DNA from: a virus
IMG/VR virus record: IMGVR_UViG_3300037489_000160
Coordinates: 1-23,813 of that record
DNA length: 23,813 nt
Strand: one strand, 5' to 3'
Of the stretch, positions 1-23,813 are shown in pieces (positions within the stretch are counted from its first letter, which is position 1; each line of letters begins with the position of its first letter). Below the pieces are notes generated by a model. The model ran no database searches. It was not told the DNA's origin and saw only the letters and a list, made by a program, of their open reading frames with translations. The translations under genes and the position numbers were made by a program.

Positions 1-58
1 TATGACCAAATGGACATTCAACCAAATGTTCCCGGAATTTAAAAATGATAAGCATTAA
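1..58 (+). CDS. 3' end (or tiny whole) of an upstream gene, unrecognised
   Basis: A reading frame that is open at the left edge ends with TAA at 56-58. Its visible residues are MTKWTFNQMFPEFKNDKH. It overlaps the start of the polymerase gene by 14 bases, which suggests that the two are co-translated. The ATG at position 2 could be the real start of an 18-residue peptide or an internal Met of a longer protein. The window edge hides which. No function can be assigned. Confidence 0.4.
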   Translation, partial: MTKWTFNQMFPEFKNDKH

Positions 59-2813
59 AACAGAATACAGCTTCCGAAAAGTATTTGGCCATATTGATAA
101 AGTGGCGGAGCGTTGCGCAGCCGTCGGATTAAAAGCTGCGGCGATTGCTGACTATGATAATACCTTTGGGCATGTACAATGGCGCAAGTCTTGCGAGAAG
201 CATGGCATCCACGCTTGCTATGGCGTTACGCTCCGTGTTTATGTCGGAAAACTCGAGAACGAACGCAAAGCGGATTTTATATGGACAACATTCATTGCTC
301 AAAACAATAAAGGGCTAAGGCAAATCAATGAGCTGGTTTCCGAGGCATATGCAAATTTCTATTATGTCCCAAGGTTAAGCTCGCATCGTCTTTTCGAAAT
401 GTTGCCAACTTTAAAAGATAACATGGTAATGTTTAGTCTTAAAAATACTTTGGCGCCTGATACTCAATTTATCCCGAGGCATGACGACAGGCCATTTCAT
501 GTATGGGCTGGTTTTGATAATTACTATCCAGAGATTAAAGATCGGATTGTGTATGAACTTAGTGCGGAGCGTTTCGAAACCAAAACAACGCCGCAACATA
601 TATTAACTAAAGAGGAATGGCTTGAGATATTCCCTCACCGTGATTCTGTTTGGGATGATACTCAGGACTTGTTGTTATCCTTTGATGCTCAATTAACTAA
701 AGCGCCTTTGCTACGGTTTCCGGATAAATTCGATATCAGGAAGCAATGCAAGATTGGTGCAAAATTGAGAAACATAGATTTGACCGACCCAGTATACAAA
801 GCGCGTATGAATCGCGAATTGTTATTGATTAAGAAAAAAGATTACATTGATTATTTTGCGGTCGTTGCGGACCTTATCAACTACGCGAAGGAACATATGC
901 TGGTCGGCCCTAGTCGCGGAAGCAGCGCGGGCTCCTTGGTTTGTTACTTGTTGGGCATTACTGAAATTGATCCTATCCCTTACGGATTAATATTTGAACG
1001 CTTTATTGACGTAACTCGTTTGGACTTGCCTGATATTGATATTGACTTCCCGGACGATAAGCGTTGGATGGTAATTGAATATTTGGAAAATAAATATGGG
1101 AAAGCCAACATTGCTCATATCTGTAACATCAGCCGGCTGAAGCCTAAATCAGCCATTGGGGAATTTGCGAAAGCGCTACAAATCCCCACGTATGAAACGC
1201 AGCCTGTGAAGGATGCGATTATTGAACGGAGCGGAGGAGATGCGCGCGTTGCTATGTGCATAAAAGATACGCTCGAATCGACCGACGCAGGAAAAGAATT
1301 TATTAAAAAATATCCGCCCATGGCATTAGTGGAACATATTGAAGCCCATGCGCGTCATAGCGGAGTTCACGCAGCGGGGATTATTGTTTGTAACGACCCG
1401 ATTACTAAATATGTCGGCTTCAATAGTCGCGACAATGTTGCGATGGTTGATAAGAAAGATGCGGAAGAACTGAACCTATTGAAAATTGATATTTTGGGAT
1501 TGCGCACGCTTACAATATTGGAACAAACCCTAGAGCAAATTGATAAAGGATTTAATTGGCTATACAATTTGCCTTTAGATGATGCTGATACCTTTACAGT
1601 ATTTAATAACATGCGCCTCGCAGGAGTATTTCAATTTGAAGGATACGCGCTACAATCGCTAACACGCCAAATGGAGATAACAGAATTCAATGACATCGTA
1701 GCAATAACATCATTAGCGCGTCCCGGTCCGTTACATTGTGGTGGTGCAACCGACTTCATTGAACGTCGAACGGGACGCAAGCCGATTAAATATTTGCATG
1801 ATTCAATCATTCCTTATACTGAGGAGACGTTTGGTACAATCGTATACCAAGAACAAGTCCTGCAAATAAGTCGCGAAGTTGGAAAGTTGAGTTGGGAAGA
1901 TACAAACCAATTACGTCGAGCGCTGAGCAAAAGTCTTGGTGATGAATTCTTTAATAAGTACAAAGTCAAATTCCTAAAAGGAGCTAAGGAAAATGGCATG
2001 GAGGAATCGGAAGGTATTAAGATATGGGAGAACATGTGTACATTTGGCTCTTGGGCATTTAATAAATCGCACGCGGTTAGCTATGGGCTTATCAGTTATT
2101 GGACAGCATATTTAAAAGCGCATTACCCGTTGGAGTTTGCTGTTGCGATGCTCAACAATGTTCGCGATGACTCCCAGGGAGTGAAACTGTTAAGGGATAT
2201 GGTTGAGAATGAGGGGTTGAAGTATAAGCCTGTTGATGCTGAATATTCTATGGGGACCTGGTCTGTTAATGACGGGCTCTTGATCGGAGGGCTTGTCAAT
2301 TTAAAAGGAATTGGCGCGAAGAAAGCTCAACAAATAATCGACCGGAGGAAAAAAGGATTAAAATTAACACCAGCAATCCAAAAGATAATCGACAAAGCGG
2401 AAACGCCATACAATGACATCTTCCCGGTCCGGAGCCGGTTTGCTGATTATTACAAAAACCCGAGCGCATATAATATAAACAGCACCGGCCTATCGTATCT
2501 AAAAGACGTTCAAGAGGATGGCTCATACATTTTTATCGGATTACTCGTTGACCGAAACTTGCGGGACCTTAATGAGTATGGGAGCGTTGTTAAGCGCGGT
2601 GGAAAAATAATCAAGAAAAATAATCTGTTCCTGAACTTTACGGTCGAAGATGATACAGACAGCATCATCTGTACTATCGACCGATACAAATATCAGGCGA
2701 TGGGAAAGACGATAGCAGAGACCGGGAAAATTGGCGAGGACTTCTATTTGATAAAGGGAAAAATCAGTGGGGATTGGCGGAAAATCTACGTGGAGAAGGT
2801 GAGAAAATTATGA
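45..2813 (+). CDS. dnaE-like: Phage DNA polymerase III alpha subunit (C-family replicase)
   Basis: This 922-residue protein is a C-family DNA polymerase, which copies DNA at the replication fork. An N-terminal PHP-like domain (about 1-65) is followed by the palm, with GPSRGSSAGS at 288-297 and the PDIDIDF motif at 329-335. Its D330 and D332, together with D482 in KIDILGLRTLT, match the three catalytic aspartates of the family. Further conserved blocks are HARHSGVHAAG (435-445), ARPGPL (558-563), YQEQVLQI (601-608) and FNKSHAVSYGLISYW (672-686). A helix-hairpin-helix (about 749-768) and an OB-like fold (about 826-922) end the protein. The PHP metal ligands look lost: Lys replaces His in the usual HSEYS motif, and ADYDN replaces TDHGN. 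The protein is about 240 residues shorter than E. coli DnaE and seems to lack the C-terminal tau-binding region. The start overlaps the previous frame by 14 bases. Identification is secure; its use in phage replication is inferred. Confidence 0.95.
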   Translation: MISIKTEYSFRKVFGHIDKVAERCAAVGLKAAAIADYDNTFGHVQWRKSCEKHGIHACYGVTLRVYVGKLENERKADFIWTTFIAQNNKGLRQINELVSEAYANFYYVPRLSSHRLFEMLPTLKDNMVMFSLKNTLAPDTQFIPRHDDRPFHVWAGFDNYYPEIKDRIVYELSAERFETKTTPQHILTKEEWLEIFPHRDSVWDDTQDLLLSFDAQLTKAPLLRFPDKFDIRKQCKIGAKLRNIDLTDPVYKARMNRELLLIKKKDYIDYFAVVADLINYAKEHMLVGPSRGSSAGSLVCYLLGITEIDPIPYGLIFERFIDVTRLDLPDIDIDFPDDKRWMVIEYLENKYGKANIAHICNISRLKPKSAIGEFAKALQIPTYETQPVKDAIIERSGGDARVAMCIKDTLESTDAGKEFIKKYPPMALVEHIEAHARHSGVHAAGIIVCNDPITKYVGFNSRDNVAMVDKKDAEELNLLKIDILGLRTLTILEQTLEQIDKGFNWLYNLPLDDADTFTVFNNMRLAGVFQFEGYALQSLTRQMEITEFNDIVAITSLARPGPLHCGGATDFIERRTGRKPIKYLHDSIIPYTEETFGTIVYQEQVLQISREVGKLSWEDTNQLRRALSKSLGDEFFNKYKVKFLKGAKENGMEESEGIKIWENMCTFGSWAFNKSHAVSYGLISYWTAYLKAHYPLEFAVAMLNNVRDDSQGVKLLRDMVENEGLKYKPVDAEYSMGTWSVNDGLLIGGLVNLKGIGAKKAQQIIDRRKKGLKLTPAIQKIIDKAETPYNDIFPVRSRFADYYKNPSAYNINSTGLSYLKDVQEDGSYIFIGLLVDRNLRDLNEYGSVVKRGGKIIKKNNLFLNFTVEDDTDSIICTIDRYKYQAMGKTIAETGKIGEDFYLIKGKISGDWRKIYVEKVRKL

Positions 2814-3977: not shown

Positions 3978-4247
3978 AGCAATATGAGCTACTGCAGATT
4001 TCAAAATACCCGTAATGACTTCCAAGATTGCCGATACGCTATGGAAGAAATCTTGGAAGGAGGCGAAGAGCCATTGTCAGGCGAAGAACTCGAAGCGGCA
4101 AAACAGTTACTGGACGATGCTGTTGAATTTGTGATGCTGTTTTCGGAAACTTTGAACATTGATTCAGGAAACATCGAGGACCTCGGATACCAAGGCAGCG
4201 TGAAGGATGAAGTCCACCATTTGATGAGCGGTGAAAAAATTAAGTAA
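3975..4247 (+). CDS. MSYCRF-type conserved phage protein, 90 residues
   Basis: The N-terminus MSNMSYCRFQNTRNDFQDC resembles a small protein family common in phage genomes, usually beginning MSYCRFENT and lacking a known function. The remainder is acidic and helical (GEEPLSGEELEAAKQLLDDAVEF). The gene starts right behind the leader AGGATAAGACC and lies 27 bases after the acidic gene. Two cysteines (residues 7 and 19) are the most conserved part of the family as I recall it. Its position next to the DUF932 gene is consistent with an early or middle phage operon. Function is unknown. Confidence 0.7.
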   Translation: MSNMSYCRFQNTRNDFQDCRYAMEEILEGGEEPLSGEELEAAKQLLDDAVEFVMLFSETLNIDSGNIEDLGYQGSVKDEVHHLMSGEKIK

Positions 4248-4273
4248 CACCAACCAACTAAGAGGATAAGACC

Positions 4274-5347
4274 ATGAACAAAGGCAAAACATTAACTCAG
4301 CTGGCAGTAGAAATCGAAAGACGCCAAGAGGCCAAAGTTGACTATGTAGTCGATACGCGTGAACTTGAATTCCTTCAGATAGGTGAAGAGGAGAATAAAA
4401 CTTTTGCGCTGAACGTTCCCGGCCAAGGCTACTATGGGATAGCTGATCACGCCCATCATCAACTAGCCAACAAGCTGGGAATCCCCATGCCGTATTATCG
4501 CCGCATGATGTCTCAGGCTCCCGAGCTACTGACCGACAACGTAGCGCATTGGCTACATGATGGTGATGATAAGCGTATGATCAGGACCCTTGACCAGAAC
4601 GTTCGAGCCGTCCTATCGAATCGCTACAAGCGCATTGAGAATGAGGATATTCTTCAAGCAGCCCTTCCCGCTATCGAGGAGCAAAAAGACGCGATAATCT
4701 TATCCACGGAAGTCACTGATTTGAAGATGTACGTGAAAGTTTTATTCCCGTCCCTAGAACAGGAAATTAAAACGGGTGACACCGTTCGTCCCGGTGTAGT
4801 AATTTCGAACAGCGAGGTGGGCGCCGGGAGTCTAAATGTTCAGGCATTCTTTTATCGCGACTTCTGCACAAATGGATGCGTGTTTGGGCAAGGCGATTTA
4901 TTTGGCCTGAAAAAGACTCACCTTGGTCGAGCCATCAGCGTGGATGATTTTGAAGTTTATCGCGATGATACTATCGCGGCGCAAGACCAAGCAACCTTGC
5001 TACAAATTCGTGACGTGGTATCGGTAGCCTCGAGCGAAGATATGTTCAACAAGATGGTCAATAAATTACGCCAATCAACCGAAGGTCCGCAAATCGAAAA
5101 TCCAGAAGCAGCCGTTCAAGTTCTCGCAAAGGCAGTCGGACTAAATGAAACGGAGCGTGGTCAGGCTTTAATTAATTTAATCGAGGACCGGGACATGACC
5201 CGCTGGGGCGCTCTGAATGCGGTTACTAAGATTGCCAATGAATCGGAATCTTACGACCGTTCGAGTGAGTTGGAAAGCTTGGGCGGTAAGATCCTCGAGC
5301 TATCTATGCGGGAATGGGGAACGATTGCTCAAGCAGTCGCAGCCTAA
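4274..5347 (+). CDS. DUF932 phage/plasmid-like protein
   Basis: This 357-residue protein resembles the DUF932 family (phage/plasmid-like protein), found widely on phages and plasmids. Family-like features include the early segment FALNVPGQGYYGIADHAHHQL, then LGIPMPYYRRM, the central RAVLSNRYKRIENEDIL, and a later domain with CTNGCVFGQGDLFGLKKTHLG (about 197-217) in which two cysteines are spaced C-x3-C. The length fits the usual 300-400 residues. It follows the same AGGATAAGACC leader as its neighbours. The biochemical role of DUF932 is not established; links to DNA metabolism or plasmid maintenance are only by association. No membrane segment is seen. Confidence 0.8.
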   Translation: MNKGKTLTQLAVEIERRQEAKVDYVVDTRELEFLQIGEEENKTFALNVPGQGYYGIADHAHHQLANKLGIPMPYYRRMMSQAPELLTDNVAHWLHDGDDKRMIRTLDQNVRAVLSNRYKRIENEDILQAALPAIEEQKDAIILSTEVTDLKMYVKVLFPSLEQEIKTGDTVRPGVVISNSEVGAGSLNVQAFFYRDFCTNGCVFGQGDLFGLKKTHLGRAISVDDFEVYRDDTIAAQDQATLLQIRDVVSVASSEDMFNKMVNKLRQSTEGPQIENPEAAVQVLAKAVGLNETERGQALINLIEDRDMTRWGALNAVTKIANESESYDRSSELESLGGKILELSMREWGTIAQAVAA

Positions 5348-5832: not shown

Positions 5833-5883
5833 TTTAAGCACCACCTAAAAAAAATAGAAACCAAATTGCCAAACGAGAAGTAC

Positions 5884-5911
5884 GGATGCGCCTTAATCCT
5901 GAGGCGCATCC
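5884..5911 (+). promoter_or_regulatory. RNA hairpin in the leader of the envelope cassette
   Basis: GGATGCGCCT (5884-5893) and AGGCGCATCC (5902-5911) form a perfect 10-bp GC-rich stem with an 8-base loop. It ends 5 bases before the ribosome site AGGAGA (5917-5922) of the lipoprotein gene. No T-tract follows, so it is not a standard terminator on this strand. It may protect the 5' end of a processed mRNA, or modulate translation of the lipoprotein. Confidence 0.6.
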
Positions 5912-5928
5912 AACCTAGGAGAAGCACG

Positions 5929-6165
5929 ATGAAAATATTAATGGCGATAATTATTACAGTGGCATTGGCCGGTTGTAATGATGAGGAAATCGAAAACACC
6001 AAGGACATGATCGAGGCCATCGCGAAGGAGCAAGCCACCGAGGCTGTTTGTAAAAAGGCTGACGAATACTTCCTCAAGAAGTGTGTTGGGGATCTCGACG
6101 CCTTAACGCAAGTCGGTTGCGATGAACTCAAAAAGGCGATGCTTGAGCATTGCGTGGTAGAATAA
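5929..6165 (+). CDS. Small lipoprotein with twin C-x10-C pattern
   Basis: This 78-residue protein begins with a lipoprotein signal peptide: MKILMAIIITVALAGC, with lipobox LAGC and the lipidated cysteine at residue 16. The mature part starts NDEE. An Asp at position +2 is not present (Asn is), so outer-membrane sorting is plausible in an enterobacterial-type Lol system. Four further cysteines lie at 41, 52, 64 and 75, giving C-x10-C, an 11-residue gap, then C-x10-C. This looks like two helices that could be stapled by disulfides in the periplasm. The ATG at 5929 is chosen over an in-frame TTG at 5866 because of AGGAGA at 5917-5922 and the signal peptide. It is the first gene of a three-gene envelope cassette. 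No family is recognised. Confidence 0.75.
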   Translation: MKILMAIIITVALAGCNDEEIENTKDMIEAIAKEQATEAVCKKADEYFLKKCVGDLDALTQVGCDELKKAMLEHCVVE

Positions 6166-6167
6166 TC

Positions 6168-6332
6168 ATGCCACGGATAAAAGGCTTCACCCTAATCGAA
6201 TTGATGGTTGTTGTAGCAATTTTAGGCATACTCGCATCAATTCTTATTCCAGCAATCCAAGAACATCAGGAACGCCAGGAAGACAAAGCTGATACATTAA
6301 ATCAAACTGAAAATACAGAGGAGCTAAAATGA
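6168..6332 (+). CDS. Miniature type IV prepilin-like protein
   Basis: The 54-residue product carries a textbook class III signal: MPRIKG then FTLIELMVVVAILGILASIL. Prepilin peptidase of the host would cut after G6 and methylate F7; E11 is the Glu at mature position 5, needed for pilin assembly. The hydrophobic helix ends near residue 30 and is followed only by a short charged tail (EHQERQEDKADTLNQTEN). No globular head domain is present, so the mature protein would be about 48 residues against roughly 100-160 for normal pilins or pseudopilins. The start lies 2 bases after the lipoprotein stop, and its end overlaps the next gene by ATGA. No strong ribosome site is visible, which suggests coupling. 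It could insert into, or interfere with, host pilus or type II secretion fibres; that is inference. Confidence 0.8.
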   Translation: MPRIKGFTLIELMVVVAILGILASILIPAIQEHQERQEDKADTLNQTENTEELK

Positions 6333-7150
6333 AACCGTTACTATACATAGCAATTGTACTATCGCTAGCATCCATGAACGCCGGGTGTATTTCTCCGAGT
6401 AAAATTGAAGCGGGTGAAGAAGGTGTATTGATTTATAAGCCGTGGATATTTGGACATGGCGGTGTTGATGCCGACCCGATAACGACTGGCTTAACTTGGA
6501 CTGTATGGTCCACTGGAGTCACGCGTTACAATATCAAACCAATGAAGGCCACAGAGCCATTTAAAGATGTCACTGCCTCGGATAACGTAGCCATTGATTT
6601 CAATTCCTACTTAACGTTGCAAATTCAAGAAGGCAAAACGCCCATATTGCATGAAGATAGTGGCAAGGAATGGTATAGCAATAAGGTGAAAGATTATTAC
6701 CGCACTGTGGTCCGTAACGAGGCCCGAACAAGATCATCCATTGAATTGCGTATCAGCCCACAAGCTATAAATGATGCCCAACAAAACATCCACGACATCA
6801 TGGCCAAGTATCTTAAAGATATTGATTTGCCTGTCAAGGTTGTTAAAGTTGTTATTGGCCAAGTTACTCCACCGCAAGATGTACTTGACGAAGCGGAAAG
6901 AACAGCTGCCCAAAAGCAACGTAATGCGACGGAGAAAGCGAGAGCGAGCGCTGAACTAGATCGTAAACAGGCTGAGATAAATAAGGCGTTGGCAGATAGG
7001 GCTTATGCGAAGCAATTCAAAATGACCACTGACCAGTTCCTAGAGAATAAGCGCCTGGATATTATGCAACAAGCAGTGCTGAAAAAAGACGGCGATATAT
7101 CATTGATTATGAATGCTTCGAATGCGACGCCAATATTCAATGTGAAGTAG
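6329..7150 (+). CDS. SPFH/prohibitin-like lipoprotein
   Basis: This 273-residue protein has an N-terminal export signal ending in NAGC (Cys 20). The lipobox is imperfect, with Asn where Leu is usual, so a plain membrane anchor or signal peptide is an alternative. Residues of about 25-185 fit the SPFH (band 7/prohibitin) fold: EAGEEGVLIYKPW, a VTASDNVAIDFNSYLTLQI strand pair, then YYRTVVRNEARTRSS and KYLKDIDLPVKVVKVVIGQV. A typical Ala/Lys/Glu/Arg-rich helix follows (EAERTAAQKQRNATEKARAS and on, about 188-235). SPFH proteins form large membrane rings. The ATGA overlap with the prepilin-like gene couples the two. A terminator follows at 7175, closing the cassette. The role in phage biology is unknown; membrane remodelling, protection or exclusion are possible. 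Confidence 0.8.
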   Translation: MKPLLYIAIVLSLASMNAGCISPSKIEAGEEGVLIYKPWIFGHGGVDADPITTGLTWTVWSTGVTRYNIKPMKATEPFKDVTASDNVAIDFNSYLTLQIQEGKTPILHEDSGKEWYSNKVKDYYRTVVRNEARTRSSIELRISPQAINDAQQNIHDIMAKYLKDIDLPVKVVKVVIGQVTPPQDVLDEAERTAAQKQRNATEKARASAELDRKQAEINKALADRAYAKQFKMTTDQFLENKRLDIMQQAVLKKDGDISLIMNASNATPIFNVK

Positions 7151-9213: not shown

Positions 9214-10692
9214 TTAAATACCAATCTCAGTTAACTTACAACTCACCAACCAGGTTATATCTTTACTCGCCTCGCCCGTCACTTCAATCTTCAATGCCTC
9301 GTTCGTATCATCAGCCGTCACACTAAACGTCCAACCCGAGGCAGCAGCATCATTGTGGGTGCTGACTGTAGTTATCGTACCAATCAATGCTGTGTTGTTC
9401 GATGCGTCCCGTTTTATCGCTCCCGTAACAACTTGTATTTTTGAATCACCAGCAGTCCCTGCACCTCCGCCGGTCTGACGTCCTACCATTGTAATAATAA
9501 AGCCCCAAGTTGTACTGGCGCGCAATATAGCGCGGGCAGAGCCACCATCCAAAAACAATTCAGTGGCAGTAGCATCAGTCGTTGTATTATAATATTCAAG
9601 AAATGATGTTTGTGCATAATCTATAAAGTGTGACCCCTGAAAAGAAAGTTGACCATCTAAATAGGATTTTGAATGGCCAATAACCATTCCACTGTCCGCA
9701 GTTACACTGCCTAAACGTCCTATGACTACGGCATTGCCAGCGCCTACTGCAGTTGCGTCTTCTCCAATACATATATCTCCATTATTTGGAGCATCAGCAT
9801 TAGCGCCAATTGCAATTGCACCATTCGCTACCGCTCTACAATTATATCCAACCGCAACAGTTTGTACTGATGATGCCGTTACTCTCGAACCGAGCGCAAC
9901 GCTATTTGCTCCTGAAGCTACTTGTGTGGCAGCAGATCTTGTTGATTGAATACATAGAGCATCCGTTCCTCTAGCATTTCCTGCGATGCCAGCACCTTGT
10001 ACTTCTATAGCTCCGTGGGCAATTGTATTCCCAGAGCTATTCAAAGTTATATCCGTTTCCCCTTCGCGACCAATAATTAAATCATCACTAACTACACCAA
10101 TATGATAATACTCATAAGTAGTATCATGATCAGCCGCTGTATATAATTGAGTTTTACCGCCGACTGTTGAAGCAGCAGCATGACCATAAACTTCTATAAC
10201 ACCTGCAGTAGTATCATCAACGCCAACTTCCAACGGATTAGTGGCACCGGAACCACCAGTACCATAAATTAATGGGCGTTCATCTGTTATATTTGCATTG
10301 AGTATCGATGTCTGACTAACAACCAACGCCACCTGACATACTGGGAAATGGTCTGAGGTATAGGACGGTGGGACCGGGCTCGCTGCTTCTGAACCCGCGA
10401 TGATATTATATAGCCCTGTTGTTTTATTAATGGCGATTCGATCTATACGAGGATTAGTCACTGGTGCTGTAATCGTCGTAGTTGTCTGCTGCGCCTTCAA
10501 CGTGAAAGTAGTTCCATCATAAATCCGACCAGCATCAATGAGTACTGTCATGTCTGGAGTAGCAGCTTCATGAGGCGCGAAGCTACCCGCAATCTCATTA
10601 AGCACTTGTATAGAACTATCAATCTCAATTTTATATGTTACATTCGAATCAGTAGTTGTAAAATTTGGTTGTACGAAAGTTTTTACAGTCAT
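9214..10692 (-). CDS. Tail fibre / adhesin with YadA-like head repeats
   Basis: This 492-residue protein ends the late operon and is the likely receptor-binding fibre. The N-terminal third (to about 145, with NPRIDRIAINKTTGLYNIIAG) resembles the base domain of phage fibres. Residues of about 257-339 carry repeats such as GANSVALGSR, VQTVAVGYN, NGAIAIGANA and GDICIGEDA, the AIG-type 14-residue repeat of the YadA/Hep-Hag beta-roll. The C-terminus is a separate beta-rich domain. Such repeats form left-handed trimeric rolls. The ATG at 10692 is chosen over one at 10716 because AGAGGGG sits just upstream and because it starts 2 bases after the previous stop. No chaperone or lysozyme motif is visible. 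Host receptor is unknown. Confidence 0.75.
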   Translation of the reverse strand: MTVKTFVQPNFTTTDSNVTYKIEIDSSIQVLNEIAGSFAPHEAATPDMTVLIDAGRIYDGTTFTLKAQQTTTTITAPVTNPRIDRIAINKTTGLYNIIAGSEAASPVPPSYTSDHFPVCQVALVVSQTSILNANITDERPLIYGTGGSGATNPLEVGVDDTTAGVIEVYGHAAASTVGGKTQLYTAADHDTTYEYYHIGVVSDDLIIGREGETDITLNSSGNTIAHGAIEVQGAGIAGNARGTDALCIQSTRSAATQVASGANSVALGSRVTASSVQTVAVGYNCRAVANGAIAIGANADAPNNGDICIGEDATAVGAGNAVVIGRLGSVTADSGMVIGHSKSYLDGQLSFQGSHFIDYAQTSFLEYYNTTTDATATELFLDGGSARAILRASTTWGFIITMVGRQTGGGAGTAGDSKIQVVTGAIKRDASNNTALIGTITTVSTHNDAAASGWTFSVTADDTNEALKIEVTGEASKDITWLVSCKLTEIGI

Positions 10693-10694
10693 GT

Positions 10695-13600
10695 TTATAT
10701 CCCCTCTGCTTGCCAATTAATATTACCGGCTTGCGCTGTACCGCCTGTGTCATATAATCTAACGTCAAAATCTATTGCTGTTATATTGTCGATTGTCGGT
10801 AACAAAGGCGTTGCGCCTAACGGTTGAACAGTAATTGATACTGGTGCATTATGAAAACGATTTGGAAATGTAATCGTCTGCCCTGCTGAAATTACAGATA
10901 CATTGGAAGCGCTTTCTATTTTTGTATTATCATCAAGCCAAGTATTAAATTCATGAACAATAGGAACAGCAGCGCCTATAGTAAATTTCGATTTGAAATA
11001 TCTTCCAATGGCATGCGCTTTTGTCCAAAGTTCAAAACCGTCGTATGATCCCGCATCTAATTTATAATCCAATTCGAATTTTTGTATACCAAGATAATTC
11101 TCACCGGGTCCGAGACTTTTTGCTAAAGACATCCAAACACGAATATCACTATCATAACCAAGATCAATTTCTGGCGCTTCATAACTGGCCGTCGGATATG
11201 GGTTTGGGACAAATTCGTCAAACGTTTCCCAGCCAACTTCTGAAGGATCTGTTTGGCTATCTACTATTAAAAATCCATCAGGATGTTTGATAAAATTAGT
11301 TAATGTTCCAGGCCATTGTTTAGATTCTGTTTGATGAATGATAGTTAAATAATCTGACGTGACTGCTTGGTCTTTAAATGTAGCATTAATCGAATAGGTT
11401 CCCTCATTATCAATTGCTTTTATATAAAAACGCCAAGTGCCTTCTGGAATATCATTTGATGTATAACTTGTTACCAATCCGACTTTATCAATTATAACTG
11501 CTGTTTCCCAAGTGCCCGTCGTTTCGCCATAACGTAATTCATAAGCTGTAAGGTCTTCATCAGTCACCGCTGTCCATGAAAAATTAACTGCTATCCCTGC
11601 TTGAACAACATTTAACGTAGCCACATCACCAGGCGGGGTTGGTACATCCAATTCTGGAAAAACCCATTCTGGAATAAAAATAATTCTATGACTACTATCT
11701 ACAGCAGGAATATAATTATCTGTATATCCTTTATTCAATGATGTTCCTGGGTCCGGTGTTAAAGTCCACCAGTCTGGAAAATCTGGAGATATAATTATAT
11801 ACCCAACTGAATTTGGGCCAATACTTTTCCAAAATAATTGCCTCGGCGCGGGCAATGGCTCTATTCCGTGATTGGCAATAAAGGCTCCATTTAATGTATC
11901 TGGAATAACGGATGATGAACCATCTAATAATACTAGCCAATTCCCCGTAGAACCACCGCCACCACTTCCCGCGTATAAAAAAGTTGAATGCGAATGCGGT
12001 TTCGAAGTACCGCCAATAGAACCATCACCACCGCTCAAATCAACATTTCCACTGGCGCCAAATGAAACTCCTCTTGTTACCGTCATGAGGCCAGTTCCGC
12101 CATAAGCGCCGGTCCCTCCGTCTGCAACTTTTGGTGGCGATTGATTTTCTGGTGGCCCACTCCCTGTGGGATAATGACCATAGTATAAATTTCCGCCTTT
12201 ACCACCAGACGTTCCCCAAAGCTCTGTCGGCAATCCCGTCAACTTTTCAAGTATCGGATTATATTGAACATCAAAAGTCGATAATGCGTGAACGCCAGAA
12301 TCTGTTAAAGGGCGCTGATCAGTTGCCATATCAACAACCAATACCTTACCACCTTCAGTCAACGCATTTGTTTTAATTCCACCAGCCGGTTTCGTCGCAC
12401 CGGAGTATCCAATATTGCCAGAAGTCGTAGCCGTTCCGATTAATCCTTGATCATTCCCGCTAATGTCTCCATTTATAGTTAAGTGGCCCATGACACGTAG
12501 TTGAATATTTTTTGTTATATTAAATATTACATCCGCATCAATAACAAGATCCCCAATGTGATAATAAATCGCACCATCTGGATTATGTATGTCAGCATCG
12601 CCACGAATTGTACTTGTCTGTTTTATATGTCCAACACCACCAAGGTTTTCATAATCATTATTAAAATCATAAAAACCACCGTCTACCCAGGTTGCCAAAT
12701 TGCGCCCTTCTTTCGAATACCACTCATCAGGAAGAACGCCAGCAGTATCAAACGGAGCATCCGTCACTGCAACTGCGCGCGTAGAGCCAAAGAAATTTAA
12801 GGTTATTTCCCCTGTTATCCAATTAACAGAAACTTGCTGAACTTCCATTGATCGATCTAAAGTTGTACCATCCTCAAAATCATCAACGCCAATTAATTGC
12901 ACCCGAGCAACATCACCAACCTCTAACAGATTTTCTGACGGCAATAATGTAGTTGATATTAATTCAGGAGGCCCAGCATACCTATCTCGAAACGATGAAA
13001 ACATTGCATACAATGTACTGAACGTATGTCGTGATCCATTCAGCCCTCTAAACTTTACAACATAAGGTTTAGAAAGGCCATACAAATCGACGCTGTCTGA
13101 ATCTATAAGTGCATTGGTACGAGTGTATCTTTCTCGCGCATCAACCCAATTCCAATCAATACTTATATAATTATAAATTTTATCAAAGCTATGCGTTAAT
13201 TGAGAATGTTTTATAATATTACTTTCATCAAGAGTTCTAATATATGCAGCATCTTTAAGAATACGCGTCATTCTTTTTAGGCCAAGTGCACCATCCGCGT
13301 AAATCGGAGAAAATGCGCCAAACAATAAAAGTAATTCCTTCTCAATAAATTTTTTCCCATCCTGTTTCTTTAAACCTTCGAATGTAGGAATAAAACCATC
13401 ATCCGTCGTAGTATTCCATAAATCATTCCCAATGCCTGTGAAGTCTGACAATCTAACATATTGTATATCCACTCCCAAATGCCAAGTCGGCGGTAAAGTC
13501 CCTGACTGATTATACATAACTCCAGTAAGCAAAGCATATATTAATTTAACTGCCGGCATTTCCAAATAAACATATTCTTCAACAGGCGTTCGCCGGTCTT

Positions 13601-19147: not shown

Positions 19148-19510
19148 TTAAGTAAGCGTATTTACACCGACGTTGATCTTGACCAGAATGGTGTCGCTAG
19201 TTGTCGCGCCTTTCGTTTCCATCGCAACACAACCAAGGGTCAGATCGCCTGACGCTGGAGTAGCAGCATCGTCATCAATTTCACTAACAGATGAATCATA
19301 AGTCACCGTCTCACCAACGCCAATAACAGCAGCATCAACTTTAGGTAATGCGTAAACACCCTCAAGTTCCAGGACGATAGTTTCACCGGAAGCAGCAGCA
19401 GCGGTTTTTGCGATACCTAATAGAGTACCGACTTGAATCATGTCGCCGGCAGCAACCGCGCCCGAAGTTACGTAATTGAGTGTTTGGCCTGGGCCTGAAT
19501 AAGTTTTCAT
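19148..19510 (-). CDS. DUF2190 capsid cement / decoration protein
   Basis: This 120-residue protein matches the DUF2190 family, small beta-rich proteins that decorate or reinforce phage capsids. The pattern is TLNYVTSGAVAAGDMIQVGTL, then IAKTAAAASGETIVLELEGVYALPK and a closing GDLTLGCVAMETKG and ILVKINV. It lies directly after the capsid gene, separated by a hairpin at 19539-19563, the usual place of a decoration gene. The start at 19510 follows AAGAGGAAATATT. One cysteine is present. Role in stabilising the expanded head is by family knowledge. Confidence 0.8.
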   Translation of the reverse strand: MKTYSGPGQTLNYVTSGAVAAGDMIQVGTLLGIAKTAAAASGETIVLELEGVYALPKVDAAVIGVGETVTYDSSVSEIDDDAATPASGDLTLGCVAMETKGATTSDTILVKINVGVNTLT

Positions 19511-19569: not shown

Positions 19570-20907
19570 TTAGCTATTGCCTTTAACACCACCACGCCAT
19601 TCCATAGCAGCAGTGCCATAGTCCAGGCGAACTTTCCACATGATACCATCAATCGTGAAACCCAGTTGCGATTCCAAGTATGGAGTATCAACACCATCCA
19701 AGAAAGCAACCTCAATCACAGGAGCCTCATTTGGATTCGCAATCATATACCACTCGGTTGCACCCAGGCGAGGTTCAGTAATTAATTCTGCAATATTACG
19801 AATTGGATTTGGTTTCTTGCTGTTTGCTTGGCTTGGGTCCGTTTCAGAAGCAATCAAAACATTCAACGTATCTTCCTGTTCAACACCCGCCAGGATATAA
19901 GCAGGCTGAATATTCAGGAAGTCATTTTCATCCACATCTTTCTGTTTCCGCATTAGGGTCCGAGCAGCACCCAAACTTGTAGCAGAAGGAACGGCACCTG
20001 TTGGAAGATTAGCATGATCATTTAAATCAAACAAAGCGATTCCATCATTCATAAGTGGATTACTTTGCAACAGGGCATAGGCATCAGCACCAACAGTACG
20101 ATTAGCAGCGCGTCCCATGAAGCGGAGAATCCGAATGAATCCACCCAAGTCATCATTAATCATTGCCTGACGAGTAAAGGAGATGGCCTTGCCTTTGGTG
20201 GCTGCCTGAATGGTCTCTTTATCTTCACCGAATGAACCAAAGCTATACTCACCACCCTCCGGAATCAAATCAAGTGAATTAAAGGAGCCCAGTTGAATAC
20301 GGTCGTTGACTTTGAAATCAGACACCTCGCCCTTAGCACACCAAGAACTCCAAGTCTCAGGGAAAGTGCCATAAGCCGCACGCAATTCTTTGTTGGCAGT
20401 ATTGTCCAGCAGATAAGGGAAATCGCTGGAGCTATGAGTAAACGCAGCAGCAACAATTTCCATTTTCGTTTTGCCTCGAATACTTACCCCACCCTTCATC
20501 AGACAGGCCTTACCAATTTCCATCAAGGTCGCGCCGCGATATTCATTTTGAGCATCGTGGGTTTTGCTTCCAATCCGCATTTGAAGTGCATCAACTATCT
20601 GATTACGGAATTTTTCACGAGCATCAGCAAGCAACTCAATCCGAGTGTCATCAGTACTCGCCGTAGAACTTTTGCCGATAGCATCAAGCAGCATCTTCCG
20701 AGAATCCTCAATATTGAATTTCTCATCCAGGCACTTATCCATCAGAACACGATGCTCATCGCCATGAAGATTAAACACCGCACGAATCTCCTTACGGCGA
20801 GCATCATCAGCAGCTTCAGCTTTTGCTACAGCCTCATCTGACTTGGCCTTAATCTCATCTGCCTTGGCTTTTTCGGCAGCAGCTATTTCTTCTGGTGTCG
20901 GTTTCAT
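19570..20907 (-). CDS. Nested capsid product from an internal start (inferred)
   Basis: Within the protease-capsid gene, an in-frame ATG at 20907 is preceded by AGAGG (20920-20916) at the ideal 8-base spacing. Translation from there would give a 445-residue protein starting MKPTPEEIAAAEKAKADEIK, that is, an N-terminal helical (delta-domain) segment and the whole capsid fold, without the protease. The helical segment would act as scaffold and be cut off by the protease. This is an inference from the start signal; the longer fusion is also open and in frame. The nested arrangement recalls lambda C/Nu3. Confidence 0.5.
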   Translation of the reverse strand: MKPTPEEIAAAEKAKADEIKAKSDEAVAKAEAADDARRKEIRAVFNLHGDEHRVLMDKCLDEKFNIEDSRKMLLDAIGKSSTASTDDTRIELLADAREKFRNQIVDALQMRIGSKTHDAQNEYRGATLMEIGKACLMKGGVSIRGKTKMEIVAAAFTHSSSDFPYLLDNTANKELRAAYGTFPETWSSWCAKGEVSDFKVNDRIQLGSFNSLDLIPEGGEYSFGSFGEDKETIQAATKGKAISFTRQAMINDDLGGFIRILRFMGRAANRTVGADAYALLQSNPLMNDGIALFDLNDHANLPTGAVPSATSLGAARTLMRKQKDVDENDFLNIQPAYILAGVEQEDTLNVLIASETDPSQANSKKPNPIRNIAELITEPRLGATEWYMIANPNEAPVIEVAFLDGVDTPYLESQLGFTIDGIMWKVRLDYGTAAMEWRGGVKGNS

Positions 20908-21621
20908 ATCATTTTCCTCTTCATTGATTTTGCCAGCTGCTGCCGACAAATTATTCACAGACCCATTATCTGAGTCAGCACCTTTTAGATTAGCAGGGTC
21001 AAGTATACTACGAGACTCCACTTTTCCAAAATCTTTCGGAATGTTCTTGAAATCATATTTGCTCAAATCAAAGTGGGCAGCGATTTCAACCGCATCCGTA
21101 ATTTCATCAATAAATCCAAGCTCCAAAGCTTCATCAGAATCCATAACAGTTTCTTCATCCATCATCACTGATATAGTTTCTCTATCGAGCCCAGACTTTT
21201 CAGAATAAACTGTAATTACACGTTCCTTCAACTTGTCCATTATCTCTGCTGTCTTTCGAAGATCGCTCGATTCCCCCATACCAACGCCAAGTGGATTATG
21301 AATCAATATTAATCCATTAGCAGCCATCAATCGACGGTCACCAGATTGCGCAACGAGGGAAGCCATTGACCATGCTATGCTTTCAACGTCCGTGATTATT
21401 TCAGCAGGATGTTTTTTGAGAATGTTATAGATCGCATTTCCTTCAGTCATCGACCCGCCAGGGGAATTAATCCGGACTGTGATTTGTTTAACATCACCAA
21501 GGGCTTTAACATCCTTCGCAAAATCTTTGGATGTAATTCCCCAGATACCGATTTCATCATAAATCATAATTTCAGCAGACTGAGTTGCCTTATTATGAAT
21601 CATCTTGTACCAATTTTTCAT
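19570..21621 (-). CDS. Fused ClpP-like prohead protease and major capsid protein
   Basis: The 683-residue protein joins a head maturation protease to the capsid subunit. Residues of about 10-185 are ClpP-like (S14 family): NSPGGSM at 52-58, the nucleophile Ser85 in AWSMAS, and His108 in LILIHNP. The third member is probably an acidic residue of MDEETVMDSDEALELGFIDEI. After a linker (to about 235) comes an Ala/Lys/Glu-rich coiled coil (EEIAAAEKAKADEIKAKSDE) and a helical stretch, then the capsid domain (about 330-683), of HK97-like type by size and position. The ATG at 21621 is chosen because AGGAGA lies 6 bases upstream. Upstream ATGs at 21627 and 21645 are too close to it or lie in the previous gene. 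The protease would cut the capsid's N-terminal arm during head maturation. Confidence 0.9.
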   Translation of the reverse strand: MKNWYKMIHNKATQSAEIMIYDEIGIWGITSKDFAKDVKALGDVKQITVRINSPGGSMTEGNAIYNILKKHPAEIITDVESIAWSMASLVAQSGDRRLMAANGLILIHNPLGVGMGESSDLRKTAEIMDKLKERVITVYSEKSGLDRETISVMMDEETVMDSDEALELGFIDEITDAVEIAAHFDLSKYDFKNIPKDFGKVESRSILDPANLKGADSDNGSVNNLSAAAGKINEEENDMKPTPEEIAAAEKAKADEIKAKSDEAVAKAEAADDARRKEIRAVFNLHGDEHRVLMDKCLDEKFNIEDSRKMLLDAIGKSSTASTDDTRIELLADAREKFRNQIVDALQMRIGSKTHDAQNEYRGATLMEIGKACLMKGGVSIRGKTKMEIVAAAFTHSSSDFPYLLDNTANKELRAAYGTFPETWSSWCAKGEVSDFKVNDRIQLGSFNSLDLIPEGGEYSFGSFGEDKETIQAATKGKAISFTRQAMINDDLGGFIRILRFMGRAANRTVGADAYALLQSNPLMNDGIALFDLNDHANLPTGAVPSATSLGAARTLMRKQKDVDENDFLNIQPAYILAGVEQEDTLNVLIASETDPSQANSKKPNPIRNIAELITEPRLGATEWYMIANPNEAPVIEVAFLDGVDTPYLESQLGFTIDGIMWKVRLDYGTAAMEWRGGVKGNS

Positions 21622-21631
21622 GTCCATTCTC

Positions 21632-23665
21632 CTATTTAAGTCCAATCCACGTATTAAGTGTTAAGTAATTATCTAAAAAAGTCAAAACCCCTTGAGCTAT
21701 TCCGACAACCGATCCAAGAATATCATACTCCAAAATTAAATGTTTGCCATTTGGTATATTAGTAATTGCTGTAATATCCAAAGTCTCATAATATTGCCCA
21801 TCACCAAGATCGTTAAGAGCCAAAGATTTTTGAACCCATCCCGAAGTTTTAAAAGTATCGTCATCAAAATCCAAATATGAATTTGTTGTAAGATTATCGC
21901 GTACCTTTACAGAAACCGTTAATCCAGTTACTCCTCCTGAATTATTTACTGATAATGAAATTGGAGCCGCAGTTTCAAATCTCGTTATAGAAATTTGACC
22001 ACCTGTATCTATACTAGCAGCCGCTACAACAGCACCAGCAACCGTAACCGAACCAACAGCACTCGTCGCTTCGACGCCAGTGAGCGCTACAGTTCCAGAT
22101 TTAGTAAAACCTAAAGAGCCAACAGCACTCGTTCCTTCGACGCCTGTTATTCCAATTTCTACATCTGCGCCCGTCGATACAGAACCGACAGCGCTCGTTC
22201 CCTCGACACCCGTTATAGCAACACTCGTCCCAAGGCTTACACTTCCAACAGCACTCGTTCCTTCGATGCCTGTTATAGAAACACTCCCTGATTTAGTAAG
22301 TCCAACTGAACCGACAGCGCTCGTTCCTTCTACTCCTGTTATTGGAATAATTACATCACCGCCAGCAGCAACACTTCCGACAGCGCTCGTTCCTTCTACT
22401 CCTATTAATGCGACTGAATGAACAGAACCAACAGAGCCAACAGCACTTGTTCCTTCGACGCCTGTTATAGAAACACTCGTTCCAGGGCTTACACTTCCAA
22501 CAGCACTCGTTCCCTCGACGCCTGTTATTGGAATAGTTACATCACCACTAACAATAACATTCCCAGCAACACTCGTCCCCTCAACACCCGTTAATGCGAC
22601 TGAATGAACAGAGCCAACAGAGCCAACAGCACTCGTTCCTTCTACTCCTATTATTCCAGCGCTGCCTCCTTTAGTAAATCCGACTGAACCAACAGCACTC
22701 GTTCCTTCTACTCCTGTTAATGCTACTGTTCCTGATTTGGTAAAACCTAAAGAACCAACTGCGCTCGTTCCTTCAACCCCCGTGAGCGCTACACTTCCCG
22801 ATTTAGTAAAGCCTAAAGAGCCAACTGCTGATGTTCCTTCAACTCCCGTTATAGGAACAGTTACGGATATTGACGCGGTAACACTACCAACAGCACTCGT
22901 TCCTTCTACTCCAATAATTGCTTTCGAAATTTCTGGAGATACAGATCCAACAGCACTCGTTCCTTCTACTCCAGTGAGCGTTGCCCCAGCACCAGCGGCT
23001 GCAACTATTTCTATATAATGGCCAGCATTTTCATCAACTGCATTCCAGTCAACAGTTACCGCAGATGGTGCACCGTCTAATAAATCAATAACGTAATAGG
23101 CTTGGTCTGATGTTCCTGATATACCTGTGGCACCATTAAATATATCATTGAAAGTAGCTGAACCAAGTCTATTAGAAGCCGGGTCCCCATCACCCCCTTT
23201 AAAGGTACATGCAGCATATAAAGCATTTCCAGCTGATCCTGCGGCTGGAGTGAACACGGTTCCTGCCGCTGTTGAATTATTAACCTTCTCCTGAAGAAAG
23301 TTAGTGGCATCAGCCACGCTTGTCGCGACAGTTCCAAGATAATTAACAGCAGTAGACCAAACGGTATCAGTAGTCGAAATAACAATATCAACCGTACCAG
23401 AGCCAGCCGTTGGGTTAATAAGTCCATATGTGTATACGCGCACATCGCCGTTACTACCGCTTGCTGTAGTAGCATGAACAAGTGTGAGTGGTTCACCACC
23501 ACCAAGACTCCATTCCGGAGTTCCAACTACATTCTCACCAGCCTCAAGACCAAAAGATACCAGAGTTAGCGTTGTTCCAACATCAACTGTGTGAGTAATA
23601 TCAGCAGTCGTGCCATTACTACTTGCGGTGAAAATGCTAGTTGTTACGCCACGTGTGACAGCCAT
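21632..23665 (-). CDS. Repeat-rich virion protein between portal side and capsid gene
   Basis: This 677-residue protein has three parts. Residues of about 1-225 form a beta-sandwich domain (VYTYGLINPTAGSGTVDIVI, YLGTVATSVADATNF, NALYAACTFKGGDGD) of a type met in phage structural and secreted proteins. Residues 231-551 are 15 repeats of TGVEGTSAVGSV plus a variable stretch, spaced exactly 20 or 22 residues. The C-terminus (about 552-677, with ISLSVNNSGGVTGLTVSVKVRD) is another beta domain. There is no signal peptide. The gene starts 4 bases after the previous stop and ends 10 bases before the capsid start, so it belongs to the late operon. A capsid appendage or decoration is likely by position, but this is inference. 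Confidence 0.75.
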   Translation of the reverse strand: MAVTRGVTTSIFTASSNGTTADITHTVDVGTTLTLVSFGLEAGENVVGTPEWSLGGGEPLTLVHATTASGSNGDVRVYTYGLINPTAGSGTVDIVISTTDTVWSTAVNYLGTVATSVADATNFLQEKVNNSTAAGTVFTPAAGSAGNALYAACTFKGGDGDPASNRLGSATFNDIFNGATGISGTSDQAYYVIDLLDGAPSAVTVDWNAVDENAGHYIEIVAAAGAGATLTGVEGTSAVGSVSPEISKAIIGVEGTSAVGSVTASISVTVPITGVEGTSAVGSLGFTKSGSVALTGVEGTSAVGSLGFTKSGTVALTGVEGTSAVGSVGFTKGGSAGIIGVEGTSAVGSVGSVHSVALTGVEGTSVAGNVIVSGDVTIPITGVEGTSAVGSVSPGTSVSITGVEGTSAVGSVGSVHSVALIGVEGTSAVGSVAAGGDVIIPITGVEGTSAVGSVGLTKSGSVSITGIEGTSAVGSVSLGTSVAITGVEGTSAVGSVSTGADVEIGITGVEGTSAVGSLGFTKSGTVALTGVEATSAVGSVTVAGAVVAAASIDTGGQISITRFETAAPISLSVNNSGGVTGLTVSVKVRDNLTTNSYLDFDDDTFKTSGWVQKSLALNDLGDGQYYETLDITAITNIPNGKHLILEYDILGSVVGIAQGVLTFLDNYLTLNTWIGLK
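22013..22975 (-). repeat. 15 tandem in-frame repeats (20 or 22 codons each)
   Basis: The core GVEGTSAVGS is repeated 15 times at residues 231, 251, 273, 295, 317, 339, 359, 381, 401, 421, 443, 465, 485, 507 and 529. All distances are 20 or 22 residues, never odd. One copy reads EGTSVAGN, one GIEGTS and one GVEATS. At the DNA level the cores differ by synonymous changes (for example TCTACT versus TCGACG on the plus strand), so the repeats are kept at the protein level rather than being a recent DNA expansion. Some linkers recur (LGFTKSG, GSVHSV). Confidence 0.95.
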
Positions 23666-23669
23666 TAAC

Positions 23670-23813
23670 TTATGCCGGGATAATGTCTATAAGTGCTTCT
23701 AAATCAGAGAATTTTGTCCGTAATGTTGCTGTATCTGCTGTAGATCGAGTTGAATAGTCCTCTTCTAAATTAGGGCGATCAAAGGTCGTCCCTCTAATCT
23801 CTAAATTAGCCTC
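23670..23813 (-). CDS. 3' end of an upstream late gene, unrecognised
   Basis: A frame open at the right edge ends at TAA (23672-23670), 4 bases before the repeat protein start. Its last 47 residues read EANLEIRGTTFDRPNLEEDY, then a Ser/Thr-rich stretch and SDLEALIDIIPA. By the usual gene order a portal or connector gene would be expected on this side, but these residues are not enough to say. The close spacing shows that it is in the same operon as the structural genes. Confidence 0.6.
   Translation of the reverse strand, partial: EANLEIRGTTFDRPNLEEDYSTRSTADTATLRTKFSDLEALIDIIPA

Follow-up and report, generated by a model that had tools for sequence, protein, structure and literature searches.

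A tandem repeat of even period in a predicted phage protein encoded beside the capsid gene, a candidate virion accessory protein

The head fibre of phage phi29 (gp8.5) and the spike of SPP1 (gp12) are repetitive, extended head accessory proteins, and T4 Hoc, T5 pb10 and N4 gp17 combine Ig-like domains with head-gene expression and a presumed display role (PMC7602432). The head fibres of phage 7-7-1 touch flagella, their fibre proteins still to be identified (PMC12796354). Repeats of comparable size are seen in the curlin CsgA, which consists of 22-residue strand-turn-strand units, and right-handed beta-helices occur in tailspikes such as CBA120 TSP2 and K2-2. The repeat described below is itself encoded by at least three deposited phages, all cultured and aquatic, in proteins (HTVC023P gp68, DSL-LC04 WJZ48131 and ct7L0027 UOF80312) that are all annotated 'hypothetical protein'.

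Here we analyse a gene in a 23,813-nucleotide stretch of DNA from an uncultured phage (IMG/VR record IMGVR_UViG_3300037489_000160; 'the window'), for which an original prediction from the letters alone had proposed a 15-copy beta repeat, perhaps a capsid appendage comparable to the Ig-like displays of other phages. Apart from the window, only IMGVR_UViG_3300037480_000137 in IMG/VR carries this gene, and its copy is identical. What is new here is a widespread viral repeat that has had no name, a parity rule in its spacing and the swapping of unrelated repeats beside a shared end domain. The gene and the parts of its product are as follows:

21632..23665, minus strand: repeat-protein gene, an open reading frame of 677 aa with an ATG start
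22976..23665, minus strand: N-terminal domain (residues 1-230), a probable phage beta-sandwich module, from a blastp match to a protein of relative L060
22016..22975, minus strand: 15 repeats, core TGVEGTSAVGSV, in 20- or 22-residue units, from core spacing and an AF2 beta-solenoid model (pLDDT 70-82)
21668..22015, minus strand: C-terminal Ig-like domain (residues 551-666), from AF2 (pLDDT 91-97) and a structure match
21635..21667, minus strand: C-terminal tail NYLTLNTWIGLK, from alignment A5

Genomic setting and distribution

The repeat gene lies in the head gene block of the window, with these neighbours:

19148..19510, minus strand: cement/head decoration protein (PF09956 E 3e-18; PHROG 122 E 1.5e-16)
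19570..21645, minus strand: ClpP-like head maturation protease fused to the major capsid protein (PF00574 E 8e-31; PF25209 E 7e-54; PHROG 133 E 2e-189)
23670..23813, minus strand: C-terminal end of the gene upstream of the repeat gene, cut by the contig end (from its translation)

The stop codon of the repeat gene (21634-21632) stands four bases before the likely ATG of the protease-capsid fusion (21627), and the genes past this fusion are, in order, cement, head-closure and tail genes; the placement in the head block that had been proposed is thereby upheld, and the gene is encoded with head genes as Hoc-type decoration proteins are. Both contigs carrying the gene stop 120-150 bases upstream of it, and no portal gene was matched in the window or in IMGVR 3300037480_000137. 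mEp043 and LLS have a protease-capsid ~37% identical to the one here, and in both no gene separates the protease-capsid gene from the adjoining portal gene; the repeat gene is therefore an addition in this phage. The statement that no such protein is standard at this position thus holds in comparison with mEp043 and LLS, but such proteins are not rare: four relatives (L101, L003, L034 and L008) carry one adjoining terminase, portal or capsid genes.

At least 498 contigs or stretches in IMG/VR encode the repeat, and among 84,980 prokaryotic species genomes (GTDB-based contigs) it occurs in two, both times on MAG contigs of <20 kb; judged by these searches, it is widespread in viruses and almost absent from bacterial genomes. 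The repeat protein as a whole has no family in Pfam, PHROGs or NCBIfam (BACON, Big_2, YadA head and Phage_fiber included), its two end domains have no match in PHROGs and nothing above cut-off in Pfam, and the Curlin profile gave no Pfam-A hmmscan match for the window protein (E up to 1) or its relatives. PDB sequence searches returned none for the protein and only chance-level matches for profiles. With the full-length protein, tblastn against phages gave no match, probably because the BLAST low-complexity filter was on; shorter queries recovered the deposited carriers named above. A literature search with repeat motif strings found no paper.

The repeat occurs in two architectures. The proteins of architecture A are short: they begin W/G-rich, continue with 6-16 repeats and end W-rich; in the podophage contig L073 such a gene is flanked by an SU10-like adaptor gene (PF24175 E 7e-8) and an S74 tail-fibre gene (PF13884 E 3e-11). 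Architecture B comprises large proteins adjoining packaging or head genes, namely the window protein, that of L008 (gene before TerL) and that of L034 (gene followed by TerL, portal and P22-like coat genes). These settings bear on an alternative that we regard as possible, at roughly one chance in three or somewhat less: the protein may be a tail or neck part, its repeat serving as spacer in a piece that binds receptors or is linked to an adaptor, and its adjacency to the capsid gene mere operon order. Such a part would suit the gene order in L073 and an N-terminal module akin to a family of minor tail proteins, but it fits poorly with the fused relatives, which adjoin terminase, portal and capsid genes, and with a window gene that all but touches the capsid gene. 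The capsid appendage originally proposed retains the argument from the head gene block; attachment to the head is nevertheless not implied by the repeat, because podophage copies adjoin a tail fibre gene.

Other genes of the window deserve mention. A 500-aa protein that closes the tail operon (9214-10716, minus strand) has YadA-head-like repeats (PF05658 E 6e-5, below cut-off) and is a candidate trimeric adhesin tip. A lone 54-aa ORF (6168-6332, plus strand) consists of the N-terminal methylation segment of a type IV prepilin (MPRIKGFTLIELMVVVAILGILASI...; PF07963 E 2.8e-10), has no pilin body, and is possibly a pilin decoy or a pilus interference peptide. Adjoining it (5866-7150, plus strand) are two lipoprotein-like products, one from a small ORF and the other a 273-aa Band_7/SPFH protein (PF01145 E 1e-14), making an envelope-directed cluster unusual for a phage. 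The window further contains a phage-encoded DnaE-type DNA polymerase III alpha subunit with a PHP domain (45-2813, plus strand; PF07733 E 7e-67).

End domains and exchange of the repeats

The N-terminal domain matches in blastp the L060 protein at 4112-4822 (E 9e-7, 32% over 105 aa), which itself matches PHROG 2106, a minor tail protein family (E 7e-8). An alignment scan yielded no further homologues of this domain, and the full-length AF2 model shows no fold for it (pLDDT ~35); the start of the L101 protein resembles it weakly (18%, judged by eye).

For the C-terminal domain, a beta-sandwich of Ig topology is predicted with high model confidence, which lends substance to the Ig-like likeness originally drawn. 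Residues 547-666 were matched (VIA) to 9jzp, the Nir2 C-terminal domain, at the top among the matches listed (Z 10.6, rmsd 2.4 over 102), with macroglobulin-type and antibody/Ig-type domains next. The domain was found in 50 other IMG/VR loci (alignment A5); in the same alignment the C-terminal end of L103, EDYLTVPKFVGLK, resembles the window tail. It also occurs in repeat-less proteins of head-tail gene regions (L105 4989-5567, 192 aa; L111 4659-6116). In L152 (phage ctUtU524; 3024-5186), a 720-aa protein whose gene separates the portal gene from that of the major capsid protein has an N-terminus that looks Ig-like by eye, followed by helical-looking repeats ('AAIKAKTDNLPSDPA').

Another observation to emerge from these relatives is that the same C-terminal domain follows different repeats. 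In L003, where the gene stands before TerL, portal and capsid genes, it comes after AETLSAADTVSAQVDFxxxV, with all 21 of 21 intervals being 20 or 22; in L101 (gene order TerL, portal, repeat-protein gene, capsid gene) and L103 it comes after a third repeat, LTLTEYQATVNAxxxIxAxxDA, whose intervals are mostly 22, with one of 24 and two of 25. Because end domain and period stay constant while the repeat sequence differs, the repeat is modular and exchangeable: the module has been swapped, and a period of 20-22 kept, beside a shared Ig-like end domain.

Spacing parity and predicted fold of the repeats

Scanning the region with a core profile picks out 15 sites (core starts at residues 231-529 of the 677-aa protein), whereas 200 shuffles of its residues gave 4.7 sites on average and never more than 9, so that the 15 copies originally counted stand; TRF also detects the array and assigns it periods of 66, 186 and 192 bases. 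The intervals along the array are 20, 22, 22, 22, 22, 20, 22, 20, 20, 22, 22, 20, 22 and 22, that is, five of 20, nine of 22 and none of the 14 odd. These intervals are not independent, since whole linkers (GFTKSGTVAL, GSVHSVAL) are common to adjacent copies. Pairwise codon comparison of the cores counts 548 synonymous and 142 nonsynonymous differences (pN/pS 0.20), and the linkers, at pN/pS 0.80, are far more weakly constrained; the cores are under purifying selection and the linkers much less so, in agreement with the earlier description of cores kept at the protein level and linkers left to vary.

The parity of the window gains weight from its relatives, whose intervals are also nearly all even: among 193 intervals in 18 proteins, 139 are 22, 46 are 20, two are 24, five are 21 and one is 23 (187 of 193 even), and when each linker type is counted once the tally is 63 even against 5 odd. 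Spacing that is 'never odd' is thus true of the window (14 of 14) and too strong for the family, in which 6 of 193 intervals are odd.

Two mirror axes run through the unit profile, one at the T of GTS and one at the linker, and they pair columns V3-V9, G2-G10, T1-S11, V0-V12 and V20-V14. The class A profile scores 1.75 for symmetry, where the 95% point of the permutations is 1.1, and the independent L101/L103 repeat scores 1.08, where it is 0.47; in neither case, nor for the L008/L034/L060 units, did any of 1000 column permutations reach the observed value. The nine 22-residue units of the window are more weakly symmetric (1.19; 16 of 1000 permutations), and by column permutation the symmetry is not significant for its five 20-residue units or for the L003 repeat. 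The inward columns 0, 3, 9, 12, 14 and 20 are all aliphatic on average, and together with the mirror symmetry this fits a unit of two strands and two turns.

We obtained two AF2 models from different alignments, leaving A2 and A7, which had misplaced fragments, out of the folding. The segment model (five repeats, 57 aligned segments) is all beta, with strands at columns 19-4 and 7-14 and turns at 5-6 and 15-18, at pLDDT 55 and pTM 0.46; its best VIA match listed is the CsgA fibril 8enq (Z 11.3, rmsd 8.4 over 90), with other solenoids next. The full-length model (25 rows) shows the repeats as a beta-solenoid of two strands per coil (block means no higher than pLDDT 82), and VIA superposes its repeats (residues 181-539) on beta-helices of tailspikes, 5w6p (Z 13.8, rmsd 6.1 over 284) and 6w4q (Z 13.2, rmsd 4.1 over 253). 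A regular beta fold rather than disorder is therefore predicted, and the beta structure with alternating strand facing that had been anticipated is consistent with the mirror-symmetric unit, the alternating hydrophobic columns and both models.

Because AF2 tends to turn tandem repeats into solenoids, we consider a beta-solenoid likely rather than established. For perfect repeats AF2 yields confident false solenoids, recognisable by internal charge stacks (PMC11795689). The window repeats show no internal charges in the solenoid model, which favours it; the L003 repeat has a Glu in 18 of 18 units, and a solenoid would turn it inward. A less probable but credible arrangement, at about one chance in four, has the same role and replaces the solenoid, then an artefact, by a fibre of antiparallel beta-hairpins, one per unit and probably trimeric like the adenovirus triple beta-spiral. 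Hairpins account just as well for a unit mirrored about two turns, adenovirus shaft repeats likewise combine two strands with a turn and a variable loop, the bias of AF2 would explain the models, and the conserved acidic columns of L003 are awkward in a parallel stack; yet the inward face of the window units is aliphatic, both AF2 runs gave solenoids, and the PDB sequence search was without a match. Low-complexity sequence drifting by repeat expansion, with no folded stalk, would suit repeats rich in small residues and the identical linkers of some adjacent copies, but is made very improbable by the constraint on the cores, by parity and mirror symmetry over hundreds of diverged units and by a period retained in sequence-unrelated repeats. 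A solenoid rises ~0.48 nm per coil, so a stalk of 15 such coils would measure ~7 nm and would not be the 'long' spike of the original prediction.

Proposed role and comparison with known systems

From the restriction to phages, the coupling to the capsid gene, the beta end modules and the purifying selection on the stalk, we infer a virion accessory or adhesion protein, made from the head operon and composed of a beta-sandwich, a rigid stalk of 15 coils and an Ig-like domain, a reading that we hold to be rather probable while leaving ample room for doubt. The stalk of two-strand beta coils would keep a binding domain away from the particle, where it could contact cells or other surfaces; the conserved Ig-like domain would be the docking side. 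A host- or surface-binding role is suggested by analogy with Hoc, pb10, gp17 and head fibres (PMC7602432). Each repeat would run as strand, turn at G-T, strand and turn at the variable linker, its hydrophobic residues pointing inward and mirroring each other over both turns. A change from 22 to 20 would shorten both sides of the linker turn by one residue and so keep facing and pairing, whereas a one-residue change there would flip the facing of the strand, which would explain why odd intervals are nearly absent. Relatives would retain the Ig-like domain and exchange the stalk for other repeats of the same period.

More tentatively, aquatic phages might build modular stalks by swapping unrelated two-strand beta coils of 20/22 residues between the same end domains, giving adjustable rigid adhesion rods, possibly CsgA-like and self-assembling. 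If the reading as a virion accessory protein is right, a repeat of hundreds of uncultured virus contigs that is missing from all the family libraries searched would be a common appendage stalk, its fold revealed by a simple parity rule in sequence; the same-period swap of unrelated repeats would be a clean natural case of a fold kept without sequence, and there would be a route to spotting such appendages in viral dark matter.

With the proteins of HTVC023P, DSL-LC04 and ct7L0027, the window protein shares the repeat (tblastn), the 22-residue period and a late-gene location; those proteins are short, come from podophage-type genomes and show no Ig-like domain, whereas the window protein has one, and the DSL-LC04 protein differs further in its GW-rich N-terminal stretches. 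The CsgA unit is alike in length and layout but different in motif, the window repeat being without Gln/Asn ladders and with no secretion signal noted. Tailspike beta-helices align with the repeat model (Z 13.8, 13.2 and 10.5) but are unrelated in sequence, at rmsd 4-6 Å, and the window repeats are short and near-perfect. Like phi29 gp8.5 and SPP1 gp12, the window protein would be a repetitive, extended head accessory; their stalks are helical or collagen-like, whereas its own is predicted to be all beta. T4 Hoc, T5 pb10 and N4 gp17 stack Ig domains, whereas the window protein owes its length to a short-period repeat.
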